Shown here in pieces: positions 5,857 to 40,938 of a stretch of 64,000 nucleotides of DNA (position 1 is its first letter; each line of letters starts with the position of its first letter). A program made the translations under genes and the position numbers. A model generated the notes under the pieces. It saw only the letters and a program-made list of their open reading frames with translations. It had not been told where the DNA came from and made no database searches. Source of the DNA: Bacteriovoracaceae bacterium (GTDB lineage Bacteria > Bdellovibrionota > Bacteriovoracia > Bacteriovoracales > Bacteriovoracaceae); the NCBI GenBank assembly GCA_013141065.1, contig JABFRR010000008.1:377464-441463 (forward strand), read 5' to 3'.

Positions 5857-7050
5857 ATGAATTCAACTGTAGTTTCATATTTTTCACAATCGAATGAATT
5901 TCAAAACGTCACAAATTGGTTGACTCAAATATTGGGATTCAATGCTTCATCTTTAGTGGCTTTTATTATCTTTGCAGTTTTTTCTTTGATCATCGTTGGT
6001 GCAATGGCAACAATCGGTGGCCTTGGTACTTATGCTGAAAGAAAAATTTCTGCAGATCTTCAAGCCAGAATTGGACCAAACCGCGTAGGGCCCTTCGGTA
6101 TCCTTCAGTTTCTAGCCGATGGTGTGAAGATGATCTTGAAAGAAGATATCGTCACAACAAATGCAGATAGATTTACATTTAATCTTGCACCTGTACTTTG
6201 CCTCGTGGGAGTGTTTGCAACTTTAGCGGTTGTTCCCTACTCGAGTGGATTTATGCTTGCAGATTTAAACGTGGGAATTTTTTACTTAGTGGGAATGGCT
6301 TCGCTGGTTGGTGTCGGTGTTTTCTTGGGTGGATATGCATCGAATTCGAAATGGTCAATGTTGGGTGGAATGAGAGGGGCTTCGCAAATTATTTCTTATG
6401 AAATTCCAGCGACACTTTCAATTATCGCTATTGTTTTACTGGCCGGAGGTCTATCAATGAAAACATTAATTGATGGCCAAGGTGGCGCACCTCAAGATTG
6501 GTATATTTTCCACAATCCTTTTGCTTTCATGGGATTTTTTGTTTACTTCATTTCAGCTCTAGCTGAAACAAATAGAGCTCCATTTGACTTACCAGAAGCA
6601 GAGTCTGAGCTTGTATCAGGTTACCATACAGAATATACCGGAATGAAGTTTGGTCTTTTTGCACTGGCAGAATACATTGAAGTTTTTGTTGTTTGTGGTG
6701 TAGCTGTAGCTCTTTTCTTGGGTGGATACAAAGTTCCATTTGACTTAGGCTCTGGTCAAATTCTCGTTGAAAAATTAGGCCTTGATGGAATGCTTGCTCA
6801 AAACATTGGTCAGTTTTTAGAACTAGGTTCTTTTTTTACAAAAACATTACTTCTTTATTACGTCGTAATCTGGGTTCGCTGGACTCTACCTCGCTTGCGA
6901 GTTGACCAGTTGATGACTCTTTGTTGGAAATACCTAACTCCCATTGCACTTGTTAACCTCATTGGTTGTGCAGTTTGGATGTATGCATTTAATGGAAAAT
7001 CAATTTTTGCTTTAATTTTTCACGCAGCTGGATCAGCTGGCGGACATTAA
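5857..7050 (+). CDS. nuoH: NADH-quinone oxidoreductase subunit H (copy 1)
   Basis: ORF 397 aa; AERKISADLQARIGPNRVGPFGILQFLADGVKMILKED; ETNRAPFDLPEAESELVSGYHTEYTGMKFG. Confidence 0.96.
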   Translation: MNSTVVSYFSQSNEFQNVTNWLTQILGFNASSLVAFIIFAVFSLIIVGAMATIGGLGTYAERKISADLQARIGPNRVGPFGILQFLADGVKMILKEDIVTTNADRFTFNLAPVLCLVGVFATLAVVPYSSGFMLADLNVGIFYLVGMASLVGVGVFLGGYASNSKWSMLGGMRGASQIISYEIPATLSIIAIVLLAGGLSMKTLIDGQGGAPQDWYIFHNPFAFMGFFVYFISALAETNRAPFDLPEAESELVSGYHTEYTGMKFGLFALAEYIEVFVVCGVAVALFLGGYKVPFDLGSGQILVEKLGLDGMLAQNIGQFLELGSFFTKTLLLYYVVIWVRWTLPRLRVDQLMTLCWKYLTPIALVNLIGCAVWMYAFNGKSIFALIFHAAGSAGGH

Positions 7051-23561: not shown

Positions 23562-23649
23562 GGAGGATTGGCAGAGTGGTCGATTGCGGCGGTTTTGAAA
23601 ACCGTTGAACCGAAAGGTTCCGCAGGTTCGAATCCTGTGTCCTCCGCCA
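23562..23649 (+). tRNA. tRNA-Ser (TGA)
   Basis: Cloverleaf: acceptor GGAGGAT/GTCCTCC, anticodon loop TTTGAAA (TGA), long variable arm, T arm GCAGGTTCGAATCCTGT, CCA encoded. Confidence 0.93.
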
Positions 23650-23694
23650 CTTTAGTTCGTCGAAGTCCCCTGAAATTTAGACTGTTAGTACATT

Positions 23695-23786
23695 GGAGAC
23701 GTGGGAGAGTGGTCTAATCCAGCGCCTTGCTAAGGCGTCGTACCCCGCAAGGGGTACCGTGAGTTCGAATCTCACCGTCTCCGCCA
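23695..23786 (+). tRNA. tRNA-Ser (GCT)
   Basis: Cloverleaf: acceptor GGAGACG/CGTCTCC, anticodon loop TTGCTAA, long variable arm TACCCCGCAAGGGGTA, T arm GTGAGTTCGAATCTCAC, CCA encoded. Confidence 0.94.
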
Positions 23787-23890: not shown

Positions 23891-24007
23891 GCTTATTTTT
23901 CAGTCGTAATATTGTAAAGTTTTTTTGTGAAATCGCTTAAGGCTTGTTCGTCTTTTTTGGCATAGACGAGTGTCGTATCCTGATCAGTAACGCCTAGTTG
24001 TTGCATT
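23891..24007 (-). pseudogene. Remnant of the C-terminus of a tyrosine recombinase next to tRNA-Ser
   Basis: DNA closely matches the 3' end of the integrase gene at 29249-29370 (...tttttttgtgaaatcgcttaaggc.tgttcgtct...catagacgag...cctgat..gtaacgcctagttgttgcat); no full ORF. Confidence 0.85.
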
Positions 24008-29143: not shown

Positions 29144-29248
29144 CTTCTTGATGGTAAATCCAATGACGAGCGGAGTCCTCATCCTTTTGGCCTCGATAGA
29201 CTTTCTGGTGGGATTACAGGGCGAAATAAATGAGGAGGATATTGCGAC

Positions 29249-30559
29249 TTATTTTTCAGCCGCAATATTCCAAAGTTTTTTTGTGAAATCGCTTAAGGCG
29301 TGTTCGTCTCGTTTGACATAGACGAGGGCCGTGTCCTGATCTGTAACGCCTAGTTGTTGCATTACAAGCGAGAGGTCACCACCAGATTTGTTATAGACCA
29401 TACTCGCACCGCCCCTTCGCATGATGTGGGTACCAGAAAAGGGCAGGTTTGCCCCTTTTAACGCTTTATCGTAGGTGTATTGAAGCGAGCGGTACTCCAG
29501 AATCTCTTGATTTAGCCCAGTGAAGATTAAACCTCTTGCCCCAGGAGTATAGAGACGAGAGAGAACCTCAAAAGTTTCTTTGTACATTGGAATTTTTTTA
29601 ACTCCTCCAGTTAAATGTTTTGAATTTTTAAATCCAGGAAGAATTGTGGTGACGTGGCCTTTTTTCCTTGGCCAATAGACATGTTGCCGAACCATGAAAT
29701 AGGAGTTCTCTATGTTTTTCCAATCAAAATAGATATCCTCCCATCTTAAAGCCGCCGCTTCAGAAATTCTAAGTGAGCCGTAGAATTGAACAGTCGCAAG
29801 GTCTGGGAAAACAGATTTAAATTTTCCATTGATGTTATCTCGAAATAAAACAAACTCCTCTTCGGTCAAATATATTTCCTTTAACGCTTTTCTTTTTAAT
29901 GAATTTTCCTTCAAATATTTTTGATACGCTCTCTCCTTGTGACGCTTACGTAGCGGGGGAGAAAAATCAGAATGGCCATAACTATCAGAATACGACTGAT
30001 AGTAGTTAAGGATCGTTCTCAAGAGATCGTACTCATGCTCGAATGATTCTCTGTTTGCATTCAACATGCGAAAGCCTTTTTGATCAAGTATCAAGTCAAG
30101 CCATTCGTCAATTAACGCCAGAGTGATCTTGTTCATGTGCTTATCCATGAAGAAGTCGAGATGATGTTTAATCATTCGATCATACTGACTAATTGTACTC
30201 TGGGCCGCTCCTGAAAGTGTTCTCATCCTCCAGTCAGCAACAACTTTAGAAAAAAGAGGAGTGTGATTAACTTTTTTTATAGGGTCAAATGGATTTACAG
30301 GATTCTCTATCCCCTGTTGCCAATTTCGAGCTTCTTCAAGTTTTTCAAAAAACTTTTGAACCCGTTTCTCGTTTTCGTATCGGCGTGCCATGTAGGGTTT
30401 GCCATACTCTGGGGGATAATATTCTTTCTTGTCTTCATCCCAGATATAAAGTCTGCTAATCCTGTTGGCGTTAGGAGTAGTCACATAGATTCTTTGTTTA
30501 TTCTGAAAAATTTTAGGATTAAATTTTTTCGTCATGGTCTTTTCCTTTTGTTGAGCCAA
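29249..30559 (-). CDS. Tyrosine recombinase/integrase
   Basis: ORF 436 aa; YGSLRISEAAALRWEDI, GTHIMRRGGASMVYNKSGGDLSLVMQQLGVTDQDTALVYVKRDE. Confidence 0.85.
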   Translation of the reverse strand: MAQQKEKTMTKKFNPKIFQNKQRIYVTTPNANRISRLYIWDEDKKEYYPPEYGKPYMARRYENEKRVQKFFEKLEEARNWQQGIENPVNPFDPIKKVNHTPLFSKVVADWRMRTLSGAAQSTISQYDRMIKHHLDFFMDKHMNKITLALIDEWLDLILDQKGFRMLNANRESFEHEYDLLRTILNYYQSYSDSYGHSDFSPPLRKRHKERAYQKYLKENSLKRKALKEIYLTEEEFVLFRDNINGKFKSVFPDLATVQFYGSLRISEAAALRWEDIYFDWKNIENSYFMVRQHVYWPRKKGHVTTILPGFKNSKHLTGGVKKIPMYKETFEVLSRLYTPGARGLIFTGLNQEILEYRSLQYTYDKALKGANLPFSGTHIMRRGGASMVYNKSGGDLSLVMQQLGVTDQDTALVYVKRDEHALSDFTKKLWNIAAEK

Positions 30560-31134
30560 ATCTCAATATCTAAAATGCGAAATCTCACTGTTCGCCCCAG
30601 TTTTTCATAAGGGATTTCTCCTTCACTCATAAGTTTATTAATGTAGGACTTGGAGATACCAAGTTGTACAGCAAGGGCTTCTTTGGAGACACATAGTATG
30701 CTCTTGACCTTGGCATGAGTTTCCTCTTTTTCCTTTCGCAAAAATATTTTAAATTTCTCTGAAAGTGTTTTTCCGCAAAATTCTTCCAGTTTAGAAAAAT
30801 CGACACAATCAATTGTGTTGCTTGTCGCCCATTTCTCTTCATCTGAAAAGTCGCTTTTTTGTAGCTTGTTCAAAGCTACAAGACTTTTTTCAAATTTATT
30901 TTTGTTATCAATAGCTTTTAAAGATTTATCTTGGCCGTGGCATTCAACACAGGTTTTGTTAGTGGGGTTGCGGTCAGATTGAAAGTAAAATGATTCGCTG
31001 GAAAACATTTTCCACCTTCCACACTCTTTGCAATAGAAATCATCTTTGCAAGGAATCATGTCGAGAATAATTTCGTAAGAAACATTGGTGGTGCTTACGA
31101 AAGCTGAAGATGTAAAATAATTTTTAATACGCAT
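30532..31134 (-). CDS. Zn-ribbon + MerR/excisionase-like HTH protein (candidate recombination directionality factor)
   Basis: ORF 200 aa; CKECGRWKMFSSESFYFQSDRNPTNKTCVECHGQ; C-term VSKEALAVQLGISKSYINKLMSEGEIPYEKLGRTVRFRILDIEIWL; overlaps integrase start. Confidence 0.75.
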   Translation of the reverse strand: MRIKNYFTSSAFVSTTNVSYEIILDMIPCKDDFYCKECGRWKMFSSESFYFQSDRNPTNKTCVECHGQDKSLKAIDNKNKFEKSLVALNKLQKSDFSDEEKWATSNTIDCVDFSKLEEFCGKTLSEKFKIFLRKEKEETHAKVKSILCVSKEALAVQLGISKSYINKLMSEGEIPYEKLGRTVRFRILDIEIWLNKRKRP

Positions 31135-31183
31135 AAATTTATCAGGTGAATTCTGTTATAGTTTTAGTATCCTAAAGTTGAAT

Positions 31184-32635
31184 TCAACTCGCTCCCATGA
31201 TGATAGCAATCTGCTCATGGTTGAAGCCGTTCTGAATTAATCTTAGAGCTTGGTCTGATCTTGCATTCATCAGATTTTTATCTATGTCGGTCACGGGAGA
31301 TTCTTTCGCAGTGTCCTTGTAGCCGAAATTGAGCATCTTGTTTACACGATTTGCCTCTAATGCTTTGGCATAAATCTGAACGGTCGCAATATCTTTATGT
31401 CCCATAATTCCCGCCAATTCAGATAACACTGTCGGAGTATCGCCGTACAAATTAAAAAAATGCGTGGCAAATGTATGTCTAAAAGAATGCATGGTTAATT
31501 TTTTATTTGTAAAAAACGGCTTAACTAATTTTAAAAATCTATCAATCGTTTGATAATGTATTGGCTTGTTCTGTCTTCTTTCGTGGCGAAAACATGGAAA
31601 AACTAAATGCAAACCTTCGCAAATAAAATCTTCTGATTTATAATGTTTATATTTTTCTAATATTTCTAATGCCTCTAATGGAAGTGTGACCTTCCTAATG
31701 ATGTTATGTTTTGGTGGCCCAAAATAGCTTCCATTGTTTTCTTTGATAATAGATAAATCGGAGAACGCTTGTCTTTCAACCAATATTTCCTTAGATGAAA
31801 TGCTTTCCCAGCAAAGCCCTAGTAATTCCCCAATCCGAAGACCTGTGATGGTTGAAAACTTTAACATGTCAACGTACACATTATAGCTTTCATTATGATA
31901 TTTTCGATTCCTTTTTGTTTGCATTATATGAGCGACACCTGTTGTAAACTCTTCTAGGTTTTGATTCGTAAGAAATGAAACGTCATAGATTGTTCTTCGT
32001 TTTTCTGGAATACGATTTGCTCGTTTCATTAGGAGGTCGGTATCAACTGGAAATTTGTAATTCATAGCAAGTGCTAAGTTTTTTAATTGTGCAACAATTG
32101 CGACGTAATCCCTCGTGGTGTTGCAATTGCGTTTTTTAGCAAAACAGCAATCAAACATTTCTTGTGTTAATTCGTCAGTATAAAAATCTCTTAATTGAGA
32201 AAAGGTATTAAGTTGAGTCTTCATGGCAACTGCTGAGCTTGGAGCAACTGTTCTTCTTTTTATGAACTCAATAATTAGATTTCCAAAACGTATTCTTTTT
32301 TGTGATTCATTTCCATTTCTATATTCAGGTTGAATCCTTTTAGACTCAAATTCGGTTCTTGCCTTGAGTGCTTCATCAAGTGAAGGACTCCACTTTGATC
32401 TTTTCTTTTCCATGTTGACGGTAACGTCAGCCCTGTAAAGTATTTTCCCCCTACGGTCTTCCTTCATTACAATGTTTTTTTGTCCATTGATTCGGTTCAT
32501 TTGAAACCTCGCTTCAATATTTTTATTTTCCTCCCTGAAGCTTATCTTCCATATTTCATATTCTTTTAAACTCATTTCCATAATTACCTCCGATTTATTT
32601 TCCATAGAGGTAATCTTATGATTGAAAAGCGTCAA
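31184..32635 (-). CDS. Tyrosine recombinase/integrase
   Basis: ORF 483 aa; TGLRIGELLGLCWESI, MHSFRHTFATHFFNLYGDTPTVLSELAGIMGHKDIATVQIYAKA. Confidence 0.88.
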   Translation of the reverse strand: MTLFNHKITSMENKSEVIMEMSLKEYEIWKISFREENKNIEARFQMNRINGQKNIVMKEDRRGKILYRADVTVNMEKKRSKWSPSLDEALKARTEFESKRIQPEYRNGNESQKRIRFGNLIIEFIKRRTVAPSSAVAMKTQLNTFSQLRDFYTDELTQEMFDCCFAKKRNCNTTRDYVAIVAQLKNLALAMNYKFPVDTDLLMKRANRIPEKRRTIYDVSFLTNQNLEEFTTGVAHIMQTKRNRKYHNESYNVYVDMLKFSTITGLRIGELLGLCWESISSKEILVERQAFSDLSIIKENNGSYFGPPKHNIIRKVTLPLEALEILEKYKHYKSEDFICEGLHLVFPCFRHERRQNKPIHYQTIDRFLKLVKPFFTNKKLTMHSFRHTFATHFFNLYGDTPTVLSELAGIMGHKDIATVQIYAKALEANRVNKMLNFGYKDTAKESPVTDIDKNLMNARSDQALRLIQNGFNHEQIAIIMGAS

Positions 32636-34850: not shown

Positions 34851-34861
34851 TTTCTGATAAT

Positions 34862-34893
34862 AAAAAAAGCCGAATTGAATTCGGCTTTTTTTA
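34862..34893. terminator. Bidirectional Rho-independent terminator
   Basis: aaaaaaagccgaattgaattcggctttttttat perfect inverted repeat flanked by A/T tracts. Confidence 0.85.
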
Positions 34894-35151
34894 TGCCTTC
34901 TTAGCTAACTACATAAAATCAAAAAATTAACAGTATCAATGAGTTGATAGTTACGCCTTTTTTGTAGTCATGGTCAAAGTCTCTAGAGGTCTCTCTGGAG
35001 TGCTATTCCTGGCTATTTATTTGGCTACGACCGTACCCCTTAAAAAATCGTACCCCTTTTTAATTTTGAAAAGGGGCATTTTAAAGGGGTAACCCTAGGA
35101 AATTAATTGGAGAGCGTACGCTAGCAGAAACATCATTTTTAGGAGGTAAAA

Positions 35152-35763
35152 ATGCAACCAGCGACGCAAAAAGAAAAGATGAATCTCTCTCATGCCAAAG
35201 CATTAAGAAGAGCTAGAGAAATGATGAAGGTAACTCGTATTGAAATGGCAAGACGACTTAATTTAAGTATTGAGGCCATTAAAAAATATGAAAAGGGAGG
35301 CTCTATTATTGATGAGAAGAAGATTCAAAATTATCTTCAGGCACTTCACTTAACAGACGAAGACTATCAAAAAATAAAAAGAGGTAAAGGTATTGGGATT
35401 AATAAGAAGCAAAGAATAGTTTTTTCAAACAGTGATCGCAGAAGTTATAAGCGAATGATCACAAAAGAGGTAAGAGTTTTAAAGATTTTAAGGCAGATGA
35501 AAAATCTTTCTCAAGATCAAGCATCATTCATTTGTGGTTATTCTCGTCCTAGTATCGGGCACATTGAGAATGGACGAATTACACTCGATCTAGATCGAAT
35601 TAAATTTATTGTTGAAAGTTATGGACATAAAATGAGTGAATTTAATCGTCTAATGTGTGAAGAAATATTAAGAGATGAAATTTTAAAATCAGCAAATGAA
35701 AAAATGAAAAACCTTTCTGAAGAAAAATTGAAAATTGTGAATTCTCTTCTTCTGAATCTCTAA
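35152..35763 (+). CDS. Xre-family regulator with two HTH domains
   Basis: ORF 203 aa; LRRAREMMKVTRIEMARRLNLSIEAIKKYEKGG and LRQMKNLSQDQASFICGYSRPSIGHIENGR. Confidence 0.8.
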   Translation: MQPATQKEKMNLSHAKALRRAREMMKVTRIEMARRLNLSIEAIKKYEKGGSIIDEKKIQNYLQALHLTDEDYQKIKRGKGIGINKKQRIVFSNSDRRSYKRMITKEVRVLKILRQMKNLSQDQASFICGYSRPSIGHIENGRITLDLDRIKFIVESYGHKMSEFNRLMCEEILRDEILKSANEKMKNLSEEKLKIVNSLLLNL

Positions 35764-35776
35764 ATTATTTTGTGAA

Positions 35777-35812
35777 GCCTAGGTTTTCAATCCTAGGCTT
35801 CATTTTTCATTC
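35777..35812 (+). terminator. Rho-independent terminator
   Basis: gaagcctaggttttcaatcctaggcttcatttttc stem-loop + T-tract. Confidence 0.8.
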
Positions 35813-36082
35813 TTTCTTTTATTAAATCACGAGGGTTTATCTCTACATCGACAAATTTAGTCGGGCAGTAAAACAATAAGAGTTAAATCCTCAATTTATT
35901 GAGCACTTAAGTGATGGCCGTCCAATTCAATGGGCATTATCATCACTACAACTGCCCTTTGTTCTTTGCTTTTCGGCAATATGTTCCTGTTTTTTAATGA
36001 GAACTAAACCAATATAGAATATTTAATGAAAAGGACTGATAATAGGAAAGAGTTGTAGGCATTTTGAATCTAAGGATTTCTT

Positions 36083-38802
36083 ATGAAATTGGTCGAAAAA
36101 AATAAATTCTCAAGAAATCATGGAGTGATTGGCAATGCAATTGCACTCACTCACTCACTCACTCACTCATAAGGTCGTAACACTGAAGGCATCATCCAAA
36201 CTAATATATTTTTTATTTTCGATATGTTTACTATCTGGTTGTATTGCCAAAGGTAAGAATTGATATTACCTTGCTCGGACCCTTGAAGAATAAACAAATG
36301 GGCATTCTCAATCTCGATGTCGCTACAGTTAAAATAGAAAATGATCAACTGGTCGTGAATGGAACTAATCTTAACGGCATCACTCAAGTCAAACTTGTCA
36401 GGACGGTGTTACTCAAAGCTTCAGCGTTGAATCATCAAGCTCAACCGAAGTTATTGCTAATGGAATAAGTGCCGTCACGGTTGGTGTCGGTCAGGTTTTT
36501 GATATGATCCTCTCGACAGCAAATGCTGCAGCGACAGTCCCAGTTATTTTTAGTTTAACCAACAAAAGTGTCACAGCGACTATGCTTGCGAACATGGGTG
36601 CTCTTTCTGGACAAGTTTTAAAATTTAACGGTACAGACTGGGCACCAGCTTCGCTTATCGATGCTCAGCTTTATAAAGGCACATGGGACCCAGCAACCCT
36701 GCTTCCAGATGTGGGTTTGTCTGCACCAGGAGATTATTGGGTAGTTTCAGCTAGCGGAACAAATCCTGGAGATGGAATTACTTATGCGATTGGTGATTGG
36801 ATTATTTCTGATGGATACAGCTGGAGCAAGTTAGCTTTATCAAAAACATCCGTCACAAGTTTTAATGGTAGAAAAGGTTTAGTTAATTTAATTCCAGGAG
36901 ATTATCCCAACTTAAAAGTGGTGCTGAAAATTCCTGGTTCAAATTTAAATGATCTTGCAAATGTGGATATCACGACAGTTGCTCCCATTGTTGGAGATGT
37001 TTTAAAATGGAATGGAACCAATTGGGTTGCTGGAGCAGGTGGAGGACGTCCGTTGGTTCAACCGAGATCACGGATCTTTCAATTACTGGAGCAGACATTG
37101 CAGAAAATACCATTAATCCCTCGAAGATTTACAGCTCATCAATTGATTTTTTTTATATTTAAGAGGGGCGATAAAACTTGGCAGAATTTTACAGCAGAAG
37201 TTTTAAATGCACCTTTATCAACATACTGCTCTTGATTAAAACACGAAGCCTTCAGTCACGACAACAGATAAAATAGCCCAGCACTTGGAAAGATACAAAA
37301 ATTTTTAAATGATTTGAATACAGATTATATTTCAAAGACCGCAGTTGCTCAGAGTGTATCAGGAAGTTTTAGTTTTACTTCACCGACTTCATTTTTGTAT
37401 ACACAAACGCCTACGGAGTGACGCCGACAGAAGTGACGAACGTCCAGTATGTAAAAGCTATGTAGATGCCGCCGTCGCCACGATGGGAGGATTTGCCCCA
37501 GCAACACTGACAACAGCCACAGCAGCAGCTTCCGGAGACACAACTCTGACAGTTGCCTCAACGACGGGATATCCAGCAGCAGGAACCTTGCTGGTTGGAA
37601 GTGAGGTTATAAGTTATTCGGGAACGACGGCAACCACGTTTACTGGGCTTACCAGAAGAGCCTATGGCACAACTGCAGCAGCAATTACGGGTGGCACGAC
37701 GGTTAACATTTATATTTTACTTTCACGATCGACGACGACTTCAACTCCAAAAATGGTGGTGACAGGAAGTGGAAACGTGGGGATTGGAACTGCTACCCCA
37801 GTTGCTCCATTGCAAGTTGCTGGAGAAGTTGTAGTTGGCAATACAAGTATAAGTTGCACAGCCACTACAAAGGGAGCAATCCGTTACAATAACACATCAA
37901 GTGTTTTAGAATTCTGTAACGGCACTGCATGGAACCTTATACAAGCCGCTGCCTGTACTGACCCCACACCTAACGTCATCTCCTTCGCTGACGAAGCTAA
38001 TGCGACCGCAAGTACTCTCTATACAGCAGCTACAGCCCAGGTCACTGGAATTAATTGTAGCGTGCCTGTGACCATCTCAGGACAGGGAAGCCCGCAGTAT
38101 CAAATCTGTAGTGATTCAGGCTGCTCGAGTGTTATTCAAGGTTGGACGTCTAGTCCAAGCTCAATCACAAATAACCAATACATTCAAACCAGACTGACCG
38201 CAGATAGCGTAGGAGGCTCAAACTTCCAAGCTACTATCATTGTGGGCTCAGGGGCGAGCGTTTGGAGTGTAACAACTGCAGGCGGTGATTGTACCTTAAG
38301 CCCAACCCCCGGAACGGTCTGCGCTGACGGGACTATATACGCCGGACTTTCACCCGATGGAAATGTGAAGATGTTCACCACAAGATGTGATGCTGGTCAG
38401 ACTTGGAATGGCTCAAGCTGCACTGGTTCGAGATCTGGATTAAGTTGGAATAACGGGACTGTTAATTGGTTTACGACTGGAGTCACCGGCAGCACCACGG
38501 GAAAGGCAAACAGTAACACCTTAAACGGCTTGGTCGATGTAGGGGCACCCTATGTAGCTGCCCAGTATTGTGAGAGCTTAAGTGAGAATGGGAAGACTGA
38601 TTGGTACTTACCCGCCCTGACTGAATTAAATGTTCTCTATACAAATAAATTATCAATTAAGAATTTTGAAGTGAGCGGGAGTGTCTATTGGTCCTCGAGG
38701 GAGGCCGGTGACAACAGTGCGTGGTACCAGCGGTTCTCGGTCGACAACCAGAACGGCAACTCCAAGTATAGTGACTGTTTGGTCCGTTGTGTGCGGAGAT
38801 AA
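36083..38802 (+). pseudogene. Decayed surface lipoprotein / tail-fibre-like protein with C-terminal DUF1566-like domain (candidate DGR variable protein)
   Basis: Fragments in several frames (ORFs 36244-36468, 36504-37235, 37345-38802); lipobox LLSGC near the 5' end; C-term WSSREAGDNSAWYQRFSVDNQNGNSKYSDCLVRCVRR. Confidence 0.75.
36144..36167 (+). repeat. Tetranucleotide microsatellite (CACT)6
   Basis: cactcactcactcactcactcact read directly. Confidence 0.95.
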
Positions 38803-38829
38803 TTTAATTATTTAATCATTTAATTATTT

Positions 38830-38850
38830 CTATCGCACGTAGTGCGATAG
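38830..38850. other. 9-bp-stem hairpin downstream of the DUF1566/VR region (DGR hairpin or terminator)
   Basis: CTATCGCAC-GTA-GTGCGATAG followed by TTTTT, 28 nt after the stop codon. Confidence 0.7.
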
Positions 38851-38891
38851 TTTTTCTAAAAATTGACATCGTGCAAGCACGAAAAGGTACA

Positions 38892-39242
38892 ATGGCACAA
38901 TATAAACACCTCCCAATTTACCGATTAACCTATGAATTACTTCAAAGAATTGTCGTAGCAACGAAAGATTACCCAAGAGAATTTAAATTCACTCTTGGTC
39001 AGAAAATGAAAGATGAATCAATTGAACTCATTGTACTAATCTATAGAGCGAACTCTAGTGATGACAAGAAAAGTCATATCGATGCAATCTTGGAGAGATT
39101 GCAGGTCGTTGAGCTTTTGGTGCGACTAAGTCATGACATGAGAATTTTACCAACAAAAAGTTACGCGAGCATTGTCGAAATGACAGAATCTTTAAGTAAA
39201 CAAGCCAGCGGTTGGCGAAAATCAACCTTGAAAACTAAGTAA
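38892..39242 (+). CDS. avd: Avd-like four-helix-bundle protein (DGR accessory variability determinant)
   Basis: ORF 38871-39242 with likely start MAQYKHLPIYRLTYELL; PREFKFTLGQKMKDESIELIVLIYRANSS...LERLQVVELLVRLSHDMRILPTKSYASIVEMTESLSKQASGWRKS is the Avd pattern. Confidence 0.82.
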   Translation: MAQYKHLPIYRLTYELLQRIVVATKDYPREFKFTLGQKMKDESIELIVLIYRANSSDDKKSHIDAILERLQVVELLVRLSHDMRILPTKSYASIVEMTESLSKQASGWRKSTLKTK

Positions 39243-39348
39243 ACAAAATGGTAATGTCACAAGTGAAAAAGAAGAAGTAGCCGGAATAGAAAATGCTAAG
39301 GCGTTTTTTAGTGTGCGACCTCATATCTCGGGATGGTTGCGGTTGGAA

Positions 39349-40938
39349 TCATTGCTTCAACCATTCTTGATCTTGCTTCATTTGAAGCAAGATCTGAAAC
39401 GGTTTTTTCCAATCATATTCAACACTTTTCCCATTCACACGGCGGTTCGAAAGTAGCATTTCTAAGAGATCCTTCTTCTCCTGGGGTGTACGGCTACTCC
39501 ACAATAATTTCGCATTGATGGCGAGTTCGAAAGTTGATCTCACTGTCTCTTCCATTTTTGCCAACGTGGCGTTATCCAAGTTTAGTGCAGGCCTACTTTT
39601 TAGAGACGCTATTTGCTTCTCTATTTCTTCCTGTTGGGCCGTGAAGAAGTCATGCTTGATGATTCCTTTCCTATAGTCCTGATAAAGCGTGTAATGCTCT
39701 TTTTCGAGGGCAGCAATGGTTTCCTCAACTCTTATCGCCTCACGCTTCATTGTCTCTTTTAAAGTGACATGGCCTGCATTGAGTTCAGCAGCCACTTCTT
39801 TTGCAAATTCTTCTGGCAATGAGAGCTGATCGAGGGCCGCTCCAAATTGTTCCCAAATGCTACCCTCTGTTATGTTCACTTGTTTTTCGTGAATACTTTT
39901 CCCATTGGCACAGTGATAGTAATAATGAGTCTTCTTAACTTGCTTTGTTTCTCGATCTATCTTGTCCTTAGGGTCATAGGTCATAAAACAACCGCAACTT
40001 GGATTAGCACAGGTAAGCCAGCCTTCAGAAAAAATTCCATCTTTTGATTGATAGGGATTTTTTAGACCAAACGTAGTCTGCACGGCCCAAAAAAGTTCTT
40101 TGCTGATAAATCTTTCGTGTTTCCCTTCGTGTTCAACACCTTGCCAATCATACCGACAGTCATAGAACTTGTACTGTAATCGTCGTTGAATTGAACCAGT
40201 GTGATAACTTTTAATTTGATCGGTAGGGATTAATCCTTCATCTACGATTATCTTTCTTATCTCTAAATATGACCGACAATTTTGGGGTTCTGATAAATCT
40301 GGAGGACAACGTAATTCAAACTCTCTTTTTACTACAGCCGTTTTCCATGAAGGGTCAATTACAATGATAGTCCCTCTTCGACGTTCAAATCCTTTTTCAT
40401 TTTTTAGATGTTGGTTGATGTATCCCCAAGGTGGACATTGACCAGGGAACCAACCTGATTCTGCCTTTTGTATAAGAGATCTACCGATTTTTGTTGTAAG
40501 ATCTCTTGAGTAATGTTTATTTTGAACTGCTTGATAATCTCGCATAAGAAAATCAGAGTCAGGGCTATTCTTGTGCAAAACTTTTCTCTCTTGCACATAA
40601 TGAAGAACGTATTTATCAGCACGAATATCTTTTTCACCTTGTTCGTTATCTGTGAGGTTTCGTGTTTCACGATCTGCCTTATAAAAGATCCTATGTCGAA
40701 TTTTGTGTTTATCTGCCCAAGCCATTGCCTCATGGAATTTTTTTCTATTTTCAGAGTCTTTGGCTGATTCAATAATGGGAAAGACTTTCACTAAGTTTAG
40801 TTTTAATTTTTTTACATACTCATCAGTGTCTTCATCCTGACTTGTCTCCGAGGTATTATATTGTTGACCTCGACTACTCCGTCTTAAAATCGCAATAGAA
40901 TCACTGCTGCTTCCTCGCCAATCATCGTTTTGAAACAT
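39349..40938 (-). CDS. Large serine recombinase
   Basis: ORF 529 aa; N-term AILRRSSRGQQYNTSETSQDED, RIFYKADRETRN, IGRSLIQKAESGWFPGQCPPWGY, zinc ribbon CANPSCGCFMTY...YYHCANGK, coiled coil. Confidence 0.87.
   Translation of the reverse strand: MFQNDDWRGSSSDSIAILRRSSRGQQYNTSETSQDEDTDEYVKKLKLNLVKVFPIIESAKDSENRKKFHEAMAWADKHKIRHRIFYKADRETRNLTDNEQGEKDIRADKYVLHYVQERKVLHKNSPDSDFLMRDYQAVQNKHYSRDLTTKIGRSLIQKAESGWFPGQCPPWGYINQHLKNEKGFERRRGTIIVIDPSWKTAVVKREFELRCPPDLSEPQNCRSYLEIRKIIVDEGLIPTDQIKSYHTGSIQRRLQYKFYDCRYDWQGVEHEGKHERFISKELFWAVQTTFGLKNPYQSKDGIFSEGWLTCANPSCGCFMTYDPKDKIDRETKQVKKTHYYYHCANGKSIHEKQVNITEGSIWEQFGAALDQLSLPEEFAKEVAAELNAGHVTLKETMKREAIRVEETIAALEKEHYTLYQDYRKGIIKHDFFTAQQEEIEKQIASLKSRPALNLDNATLAKMEETVRSTFELAINAKLLWSSRTPQEKKDLLEMLLSNRRVNGKSVEYDWKKPFQILLQMKQDQEWLKQ

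Follow-up and report, generated by a model that had tools for sequence, protein, structure and literature searches.

A probable decayed diversity-generating retroelement at a fibre-like gene of a Bacteriovoracaceae bacterium

The window, which is the whole stretch of 64,000 nucleotides analyzed here, is part of contig C6 of an assembly of 3.58 Mb in 21 contigs that is ~92% complete. The locus of interest contains a fibre-like gene, a hairpin, an avd gene, the remnant of a structured RNA and a serine recombinase gene, and part of it is found a second time on contig C14:

34851-39022, + strand, duplicated segment (regulator, fibre gene, variable repeat, hairpin and 5' part of avd) with its second copy on contig C14
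35152-35763, + strand, regulator with a double helix-turn-helix, 5' of the fibre gene, in both copies
36205-37480, + strand, decayed 5' half of the fibre-like target gene, with a lipoprotein-like start and a stalk; compared to the C14 copy it has many indels that break the frame
37345-38802, + strand, 3' half of the target (variable protein) gene, with a MAT-fibre-like centre and an Lcl_C/DUF1566 tip at ~38431-38796
38685-38802, + strand, variable repeat (VR), with the core of variation at 38686-38780
38778-38802, + strand, IMH-like invariant 3' end of the VR, TTTGGTCCGTTGTGTGCGGAGATAA, identical in the C14 copy
38830-38850, no strand assigned, hairpin/cruciform 3' of the VR with a 9-bp stem and a GTA loop, present in both copies and in eight relatives
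38892-39242, + strand, avd (bAvd family), intact, 116 amino acids from the ATG, 71% and 66% identical to the Avd of loci L015 and L016
39279-39363, + strand, remnant of the avd-TR intergenic RNA (TR, template repeat), scoring 88.8 bits with RNA model R1, the window sequence being itself among the eight sequences that build this model; it consists of a 5' stem, the 5' strand of helix P1, GATGGTTG (39332-39339), and helix H1 (39341-39362), and is cut at the CCA at 39361-39363
39349-40938, - strand, large serine recombinase, with its last codons (LKQ stop) read from the RNA; it marks the junction where the TR and the reverse transcriptase (RT) were lost

The surviving 3' part of the target gene is an open reading frame of 485 amino acids, and Pfam Lcl_C/DUF1566 matched its 3' end above cut-off (3.6e-10). 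DUF1566 is a common target domain of diversity-generating retroelements (DGRs), reported as CLec (PMC6642488). The centre of the protein matched solved MAT fibres of Bdellovibrio in sequence (8oml, 1.2e-5; 8ond, bd2133, 3.9e-4), and judged from such matches the stalk appears to resemble 8oml, 8ond and 8ojn of Bdellovibrio bacteriovorus (PMC10769870). The MAT fibre Bd2740 carries a C-type lectin tip, the trimer of which matches Mtd (PMC10769870). The locus found here differs from these fibres (PMC10769870) in having an Lcl_C/DUF1566 tip with a DGR VR, and no report of a DGR in Bdellovibrio was found in the literature searched. An AlphaFold model of the tip had a pLDDT of 45, too poor for use, and was set aside.

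Compared to the C14 copy, the window copy of the fibre gene has 11 indels that are not a multiple of three in 36181-37480 and none in 37481-38802. Because of these 11 frame breaks the 5' halves of both copies cannot both be open, and neither copy was found to have one continuous frame there. The substitutions between the copies in 36205-37480 are without codon-position bias. Just upstream of the lipoprotein-like start lies a (CACT)n tetranucleotide repeat, found at 36144-36169 of the window and at ~6549-6582 of locus L014; its copy number differs between the two copies, and phase variation is possible.

The segment on C14 is a mosaic relative to 34851-39022, with identities of ~76-100%. A search of the genome with the VR DNA retrieved only the two VRs, the sole other copy being that on C14 with 89% identity. 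Within the VR (38686-38780) the two copies differ by 11, 11, and 1 substitutions at codon positions 1, 2, and 3, while the corresponding numbers for 37661-38430 are 9, 3, and 96 (Fisher 2e-15). The latter pattern is that of purifying selection. We used the TRs of six relatives as a proxy for the template, and 16 of the 23 VR differences fell in columns where four or more of the six TRs have A, compared to 22 of the 95 unchanged columns (Fisher p 4.6e-5). The two copies do not differ in the 3' end of the VR or in the hairpin, and in relatives the end corresponding to TTTGGTCCGTTGTGTGCGGAGATAA is common to TR and VR. Since the two copies carry independently mutated VRs, diversification has taken place in this genome in the past. 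The C14 copy has lost avd beyond codon 49, by a different route from the loss of TR and RT in the window copy.

The initial annotation had read an orphan DGR from this sequence. The C-terminal peptide quoted there is encoded at 38674-38799, and the DUF1566 target, the 9-bp hairpin at 38830-38850 and the Avd homologue were borne out by Pfam matches and the fold test. Two of its arguments were found to be weak. The higher GC content of the VR holds relative to the immediate flanks (0.56 vs ~0.37-0.38) but not relative to the upstream gene (0.45-0.55), and the run of NNC/NNT codons (20 of 32 in the VR), although present, is of little weight alone, as the upstream part is similar (245 of 447). The initial annotation did not include the second copy of the cassette, the frame breaks of the target gene, the part of the DGR RNA kept after avd, or the role of the recombinase as a mark of the cut.

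The hairpin, CTATCGCAC-GTA-GTGCGATAG, occupies exactly 38830-38850. It begins 27 bp past the stop codon of the target gene, within the 4-34 bp downstream of the VR where a DGR hairpin is expected, and none of 200 shuffles folded as well (z -5.5). The reading frame that follows (38871-39242) matched bAvd, PF22296, with 7.8e-18 and 65.4 bits (cut-off 40). Because a MAQY start is common to the relatives, the ATG at 38892 is the more likely start of avd, rather than the GTG at 38871. A search with Pfam PF05635 gave nothing, and the controls were likewise without match.

We searched 379 genomes of the phylum with the Avd of the window. Seven full-length relatives were found in five genomes, and all seven lie inside complete DGRs of the same order, with a DGR RT adjoining and a TR present in every case. 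In these relatives the target gene with its VR is followed, in this order, by the hairpin, avd, the structured RNA, the TR, and the RT, and 84 of their 91 TR/VR mismatches are at template adenines. Full-length-Avd loci of the same family in viral contigs have an RT nearby in 19 of 19 cases, and a plasmid search for Avd relatives found none. The relatives compared here come from the same genus, family, and phylum. The closest named match is a Bdellovibrionales MAG, where L015 has variable protein (VP), avd, TR, and RT; here 12 sites distinguish the VR from the TR, and each of them is A in the TR. The DGRs of this MAG, clean15 (L015/L095 and L096), resemble the window locus in the C-terminus of the target (54% identical), in Avd (~71-72%) and in having the same RNA, and differ in being complete and in being two in one genome. 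As evidence against a DGR the initial annotation had named a lack of TR and RT in the genome and its relatives, together with VR differences not biased to template adenines. Both RT and TR occur in the relatives, and the VR differences do favour template adenines; the DGR reading thus withstands this test, and the comparison with the relatives is strong evidence for it.

Two other arrangements were seen among the matches. In a Micavibrio MAG (L016, 10373-11238) a target-avd unit without its own RNA, TR or RT lies tail to tail with a DGR of a different TR; a second DGR of that genome is mismatched too, and it was rejected as serving the orphan VP, since only 20 of 43 mismatches were at template A. 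In the viral contigs L135-L139 the target genes have no RT, and of avd just the initial 18-57 codons come after them, which resembles the C14 copy. These look like accessory target cassettes copied along with part of the downstream flank.

Between avd and the TR, a conserved RNA was found in seven complete DGRs (L095, L096, L097, L098, L099, L100, and L092). Folded singly, the seven sequences have a common shape, a four-way junction in which a closing, long-range helix P1 is followed by H1, H2, and H3. P1 is 8 bp long and its 3' strand ends shortly before the TR. For P1 and H1 together pairing was found in 100% of cells and both-side changes in 8 of 14 pairs, values that none of 500 shuffles reached in either respect, the structure being derived from the tested sequences themselves and the comparison with slid versions therefore not independent. 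The 5' stem covaries also. The Rfam family RT-7 (RF03028) matched L015 with 27.5 bits against a gathering threshold of 116.8, over the 5' stem only, and did not match L096 or the window; other Rfam matches in the window were rejected as chance matches of miRNA/snoRNA families on the hairpin at the recombinase end. A scan of the viral contigs for exact motifs of the RNA core gave nothing, while the search with the RNA model gave diverged copies in viral DGRs. This covarying RNA may be new and is the more novel by-product of the analysis; it is a candidate for an RT/Avd-binding or priming platform.

The window keeps 85 nt of this RNA after avd, which is the only strong match to model R1 in the genome. 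The rest of the DGR was not found. The initial annotation had reported no RT or TR in the window, and this absence extends to the whole assembly. No DGR-type RT was found in it either with Pfam RVT_1 or with the RT of L015 as a query, which gave nothing at E up to 10, while the same query had matches in 13 of 132 genomes from the order, including three from the same genus. The only RT found by RVT_1 is a DRT4 defence RT (2.8e-144) and was rejected as the RT of the DGR. It is located at L001 (G000:C6:4542-4961), as an antiphage RT beside an open reading frame resembling a type I restriction specificity subunit. No TR was found in the whole assembly, where the VR DNA query retrieved the two VRs alone. 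Of the marks of a degenerate DGR, an A-site-biased VR, a hairpin, an Avd, and homology to complete DGRs in the same order were all found; of those of a complete functional DGR, a DGR-type RT and a TR with A-specific mismatches are lacking from the assembly.

The RNA is cut at 39363, where the serine recombinase noticed downstream in the initial annotation (39349-40938, - strand) is indeed located; its 3' end comes directly after H1, on the opposite strand. The recombinase belongs to a family of large serine recombinases found in this bacterial family. Nine homologues, including one encoded in the same genome, can be aligned up to or close to the protein's end. The genes of all nine relatives (L103-L111) end at or within ~45 nt of the 3' end of a tRNA, which is tRNA-Arg, Glu, Leu, Phe or Asp, and in six of the nine the frame visibly continues into the tRNA, entering it at TGG (CCA in the complement). 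At the end of the window recombinase (L102) no tRNA was found. Here the frame passes TGG (complement of 39361-39363) into the DGR RNA, with LKQ and the stop codon. We infer that the recombinase element joined at the CCA at 39361-39363 and that the downstream half of the DGR was lost in that event or in a later deletion. The far side of a simple insertion, with the rest of the RNA, the TR, and the RT, was not found in the assembly.

Altogether, these observations make it highly probable that the locus is a decayed DGR which diversified the tip of a MAT-like fibre and has lost its copying half. When it worked, the DGR most likely varied a surface adhesin at its tip, and the fibre presumably recognised prey or surfaces. 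In this working form the RT would have made cDNA from the TR RNA, inserting random bases at adenines, and this cDNA would have replaced the VR in the 3' part of the fibre-like adhesin gene, thereby altering binding residues of the Lcl_C/CLec-type tip. The copying half (3' half of the RNA, TR, and RT) appears to be gone from this genome. A tRNA-site-specific serine recombinase element is joined to H1 of the DGR RNA at CCA, and the 5' part of the fibre gene is broken in its frame. The recombinase may have caused the loss of the TR/RT half, either by integration at a pseudo-att site or by deletion between the element and a downstream attachment site. We tentatively propose, as one possibility, that the structured domain 5' of the TR in this DGR clade (5' stem and P1-closed four-way junction) was a cloverleaf-like RNA gene which a tRNA-type serine integrase took as an off-target site, destroying the DGR.

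The ability to diversify has most likely been lost in this genome and the locus is presumably inactive. Decay is not total, since both avd and the target's 3' half remain open. The RT/TR unit could also be missing from the assembly, because this is ~92% complete in 21 contigs. The target might still be diversified in trans, by an RT/TR in the unassembled 8% or in sibling cells with an intact allele. The intact VR 3' end, hairpin, and avd and the divergence of the two VRs agree with this, and published work on degenerate DGRs of Thiohalocapsa describes both action in trans and structural variants that are intact (PMC10907252). We nevertheless consider it unlikely, as the TR, the 3' part of the DGR RNA, and the DGR RT are absent from the assembly and the 5' halves of the fibre genes are frame-broken, so that diversification of the tip would probably yield no exported fibre.

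Some of the frame breaks could be errors of assembly. It is quite improbable, however, that they or the recombinase junction are artefacts (indel errors or a chimera) that conceal a complete DGR in the true genome. Two similar copies in one genome can mislead assemblers, and many of the indels are of a single base, but the form of the junction matches the recombinase/tRNA junctions of the relatives, long open reading frames nearby are intact, and the relevant contigs extend >12 kb on each side. That VP and avd never had a TR/RT of their own but form an accessory target cassette which spread by copying of target 3' ends with the start of avd has very little probability, for although RT-less VP genes with avd stubs of 18-57 amino acids exist in L135-L139, the C14 copy with its 49-amino-acid avd resembles these, and the VP-avd unit of L016 is without a matching TR at the two DGRs examined, the window copy has a full avd and 85 nt of DGR RNA cut within its structure, and half of a DGR RNA is not expected on a cassette without its own DGR.

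The decayed DGR can be compared to known systems. The order of VR target, hairpin, avd, TR, and RT in the relatives resembles the mtd-avd-TR-brt order of the DGR of Bordetella phage BPP-1, as do the A-specific mutagenesis and the lectin-like target; the window locus differs in its lack of TR and RT. The RT-recruiting spacer of BPP-1 is located between TR and brt (PMC12875486), while this clade has little room between TR and RT and has the covarying RNA 5' of the TR. The hairpin loop is a 3-nt GNA in most members here, compared to a 4-nt GRNA (PMC3240598).

The type of locus is already known, since RT-less degenerate DGRs with duplicated targets and damage by mobile elements have been published. 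In Thiohalocapsa PB-PSB1 degenerate DGR loci have duplicated targets and have lost RT or TR to mobile elements (PMC10907252); duplicated target genes, mobile-element damage, and RT-lessness (there of some loci) are shared with the case described here. In contrast to the present genome, where none was found, complete DGRs of the same classes remain in that of PB-PSB1, and the disrupting agents there were transposons or MITE-like arrays rather than a tRNA-type serine recombinase.

DGR death is seen here at an intermediate stage, and its breakpoint is mapped. The locus also connects DGRs with MAT-like adhesive fibres of the Bdellovibrio lineage. The known MAT fibres of that lineage act in prey recognition, and DGR-driven variation of such fibres can now be tested in the intact relatives.

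The surroundings of the cassette contain tyrosine integrases, IS110-like copies, and DNA methylases in addition to the serine recombinase. Elsewhere in the window two tRNA-Ser genes are followed by 116-bp direct repeats (23562-23786, 23892-24007, 29248-29363, and 29249-32635). The stretch bracketed by these repeats ends in a tyrosine integrase and is likely an integration site of a genomic island.
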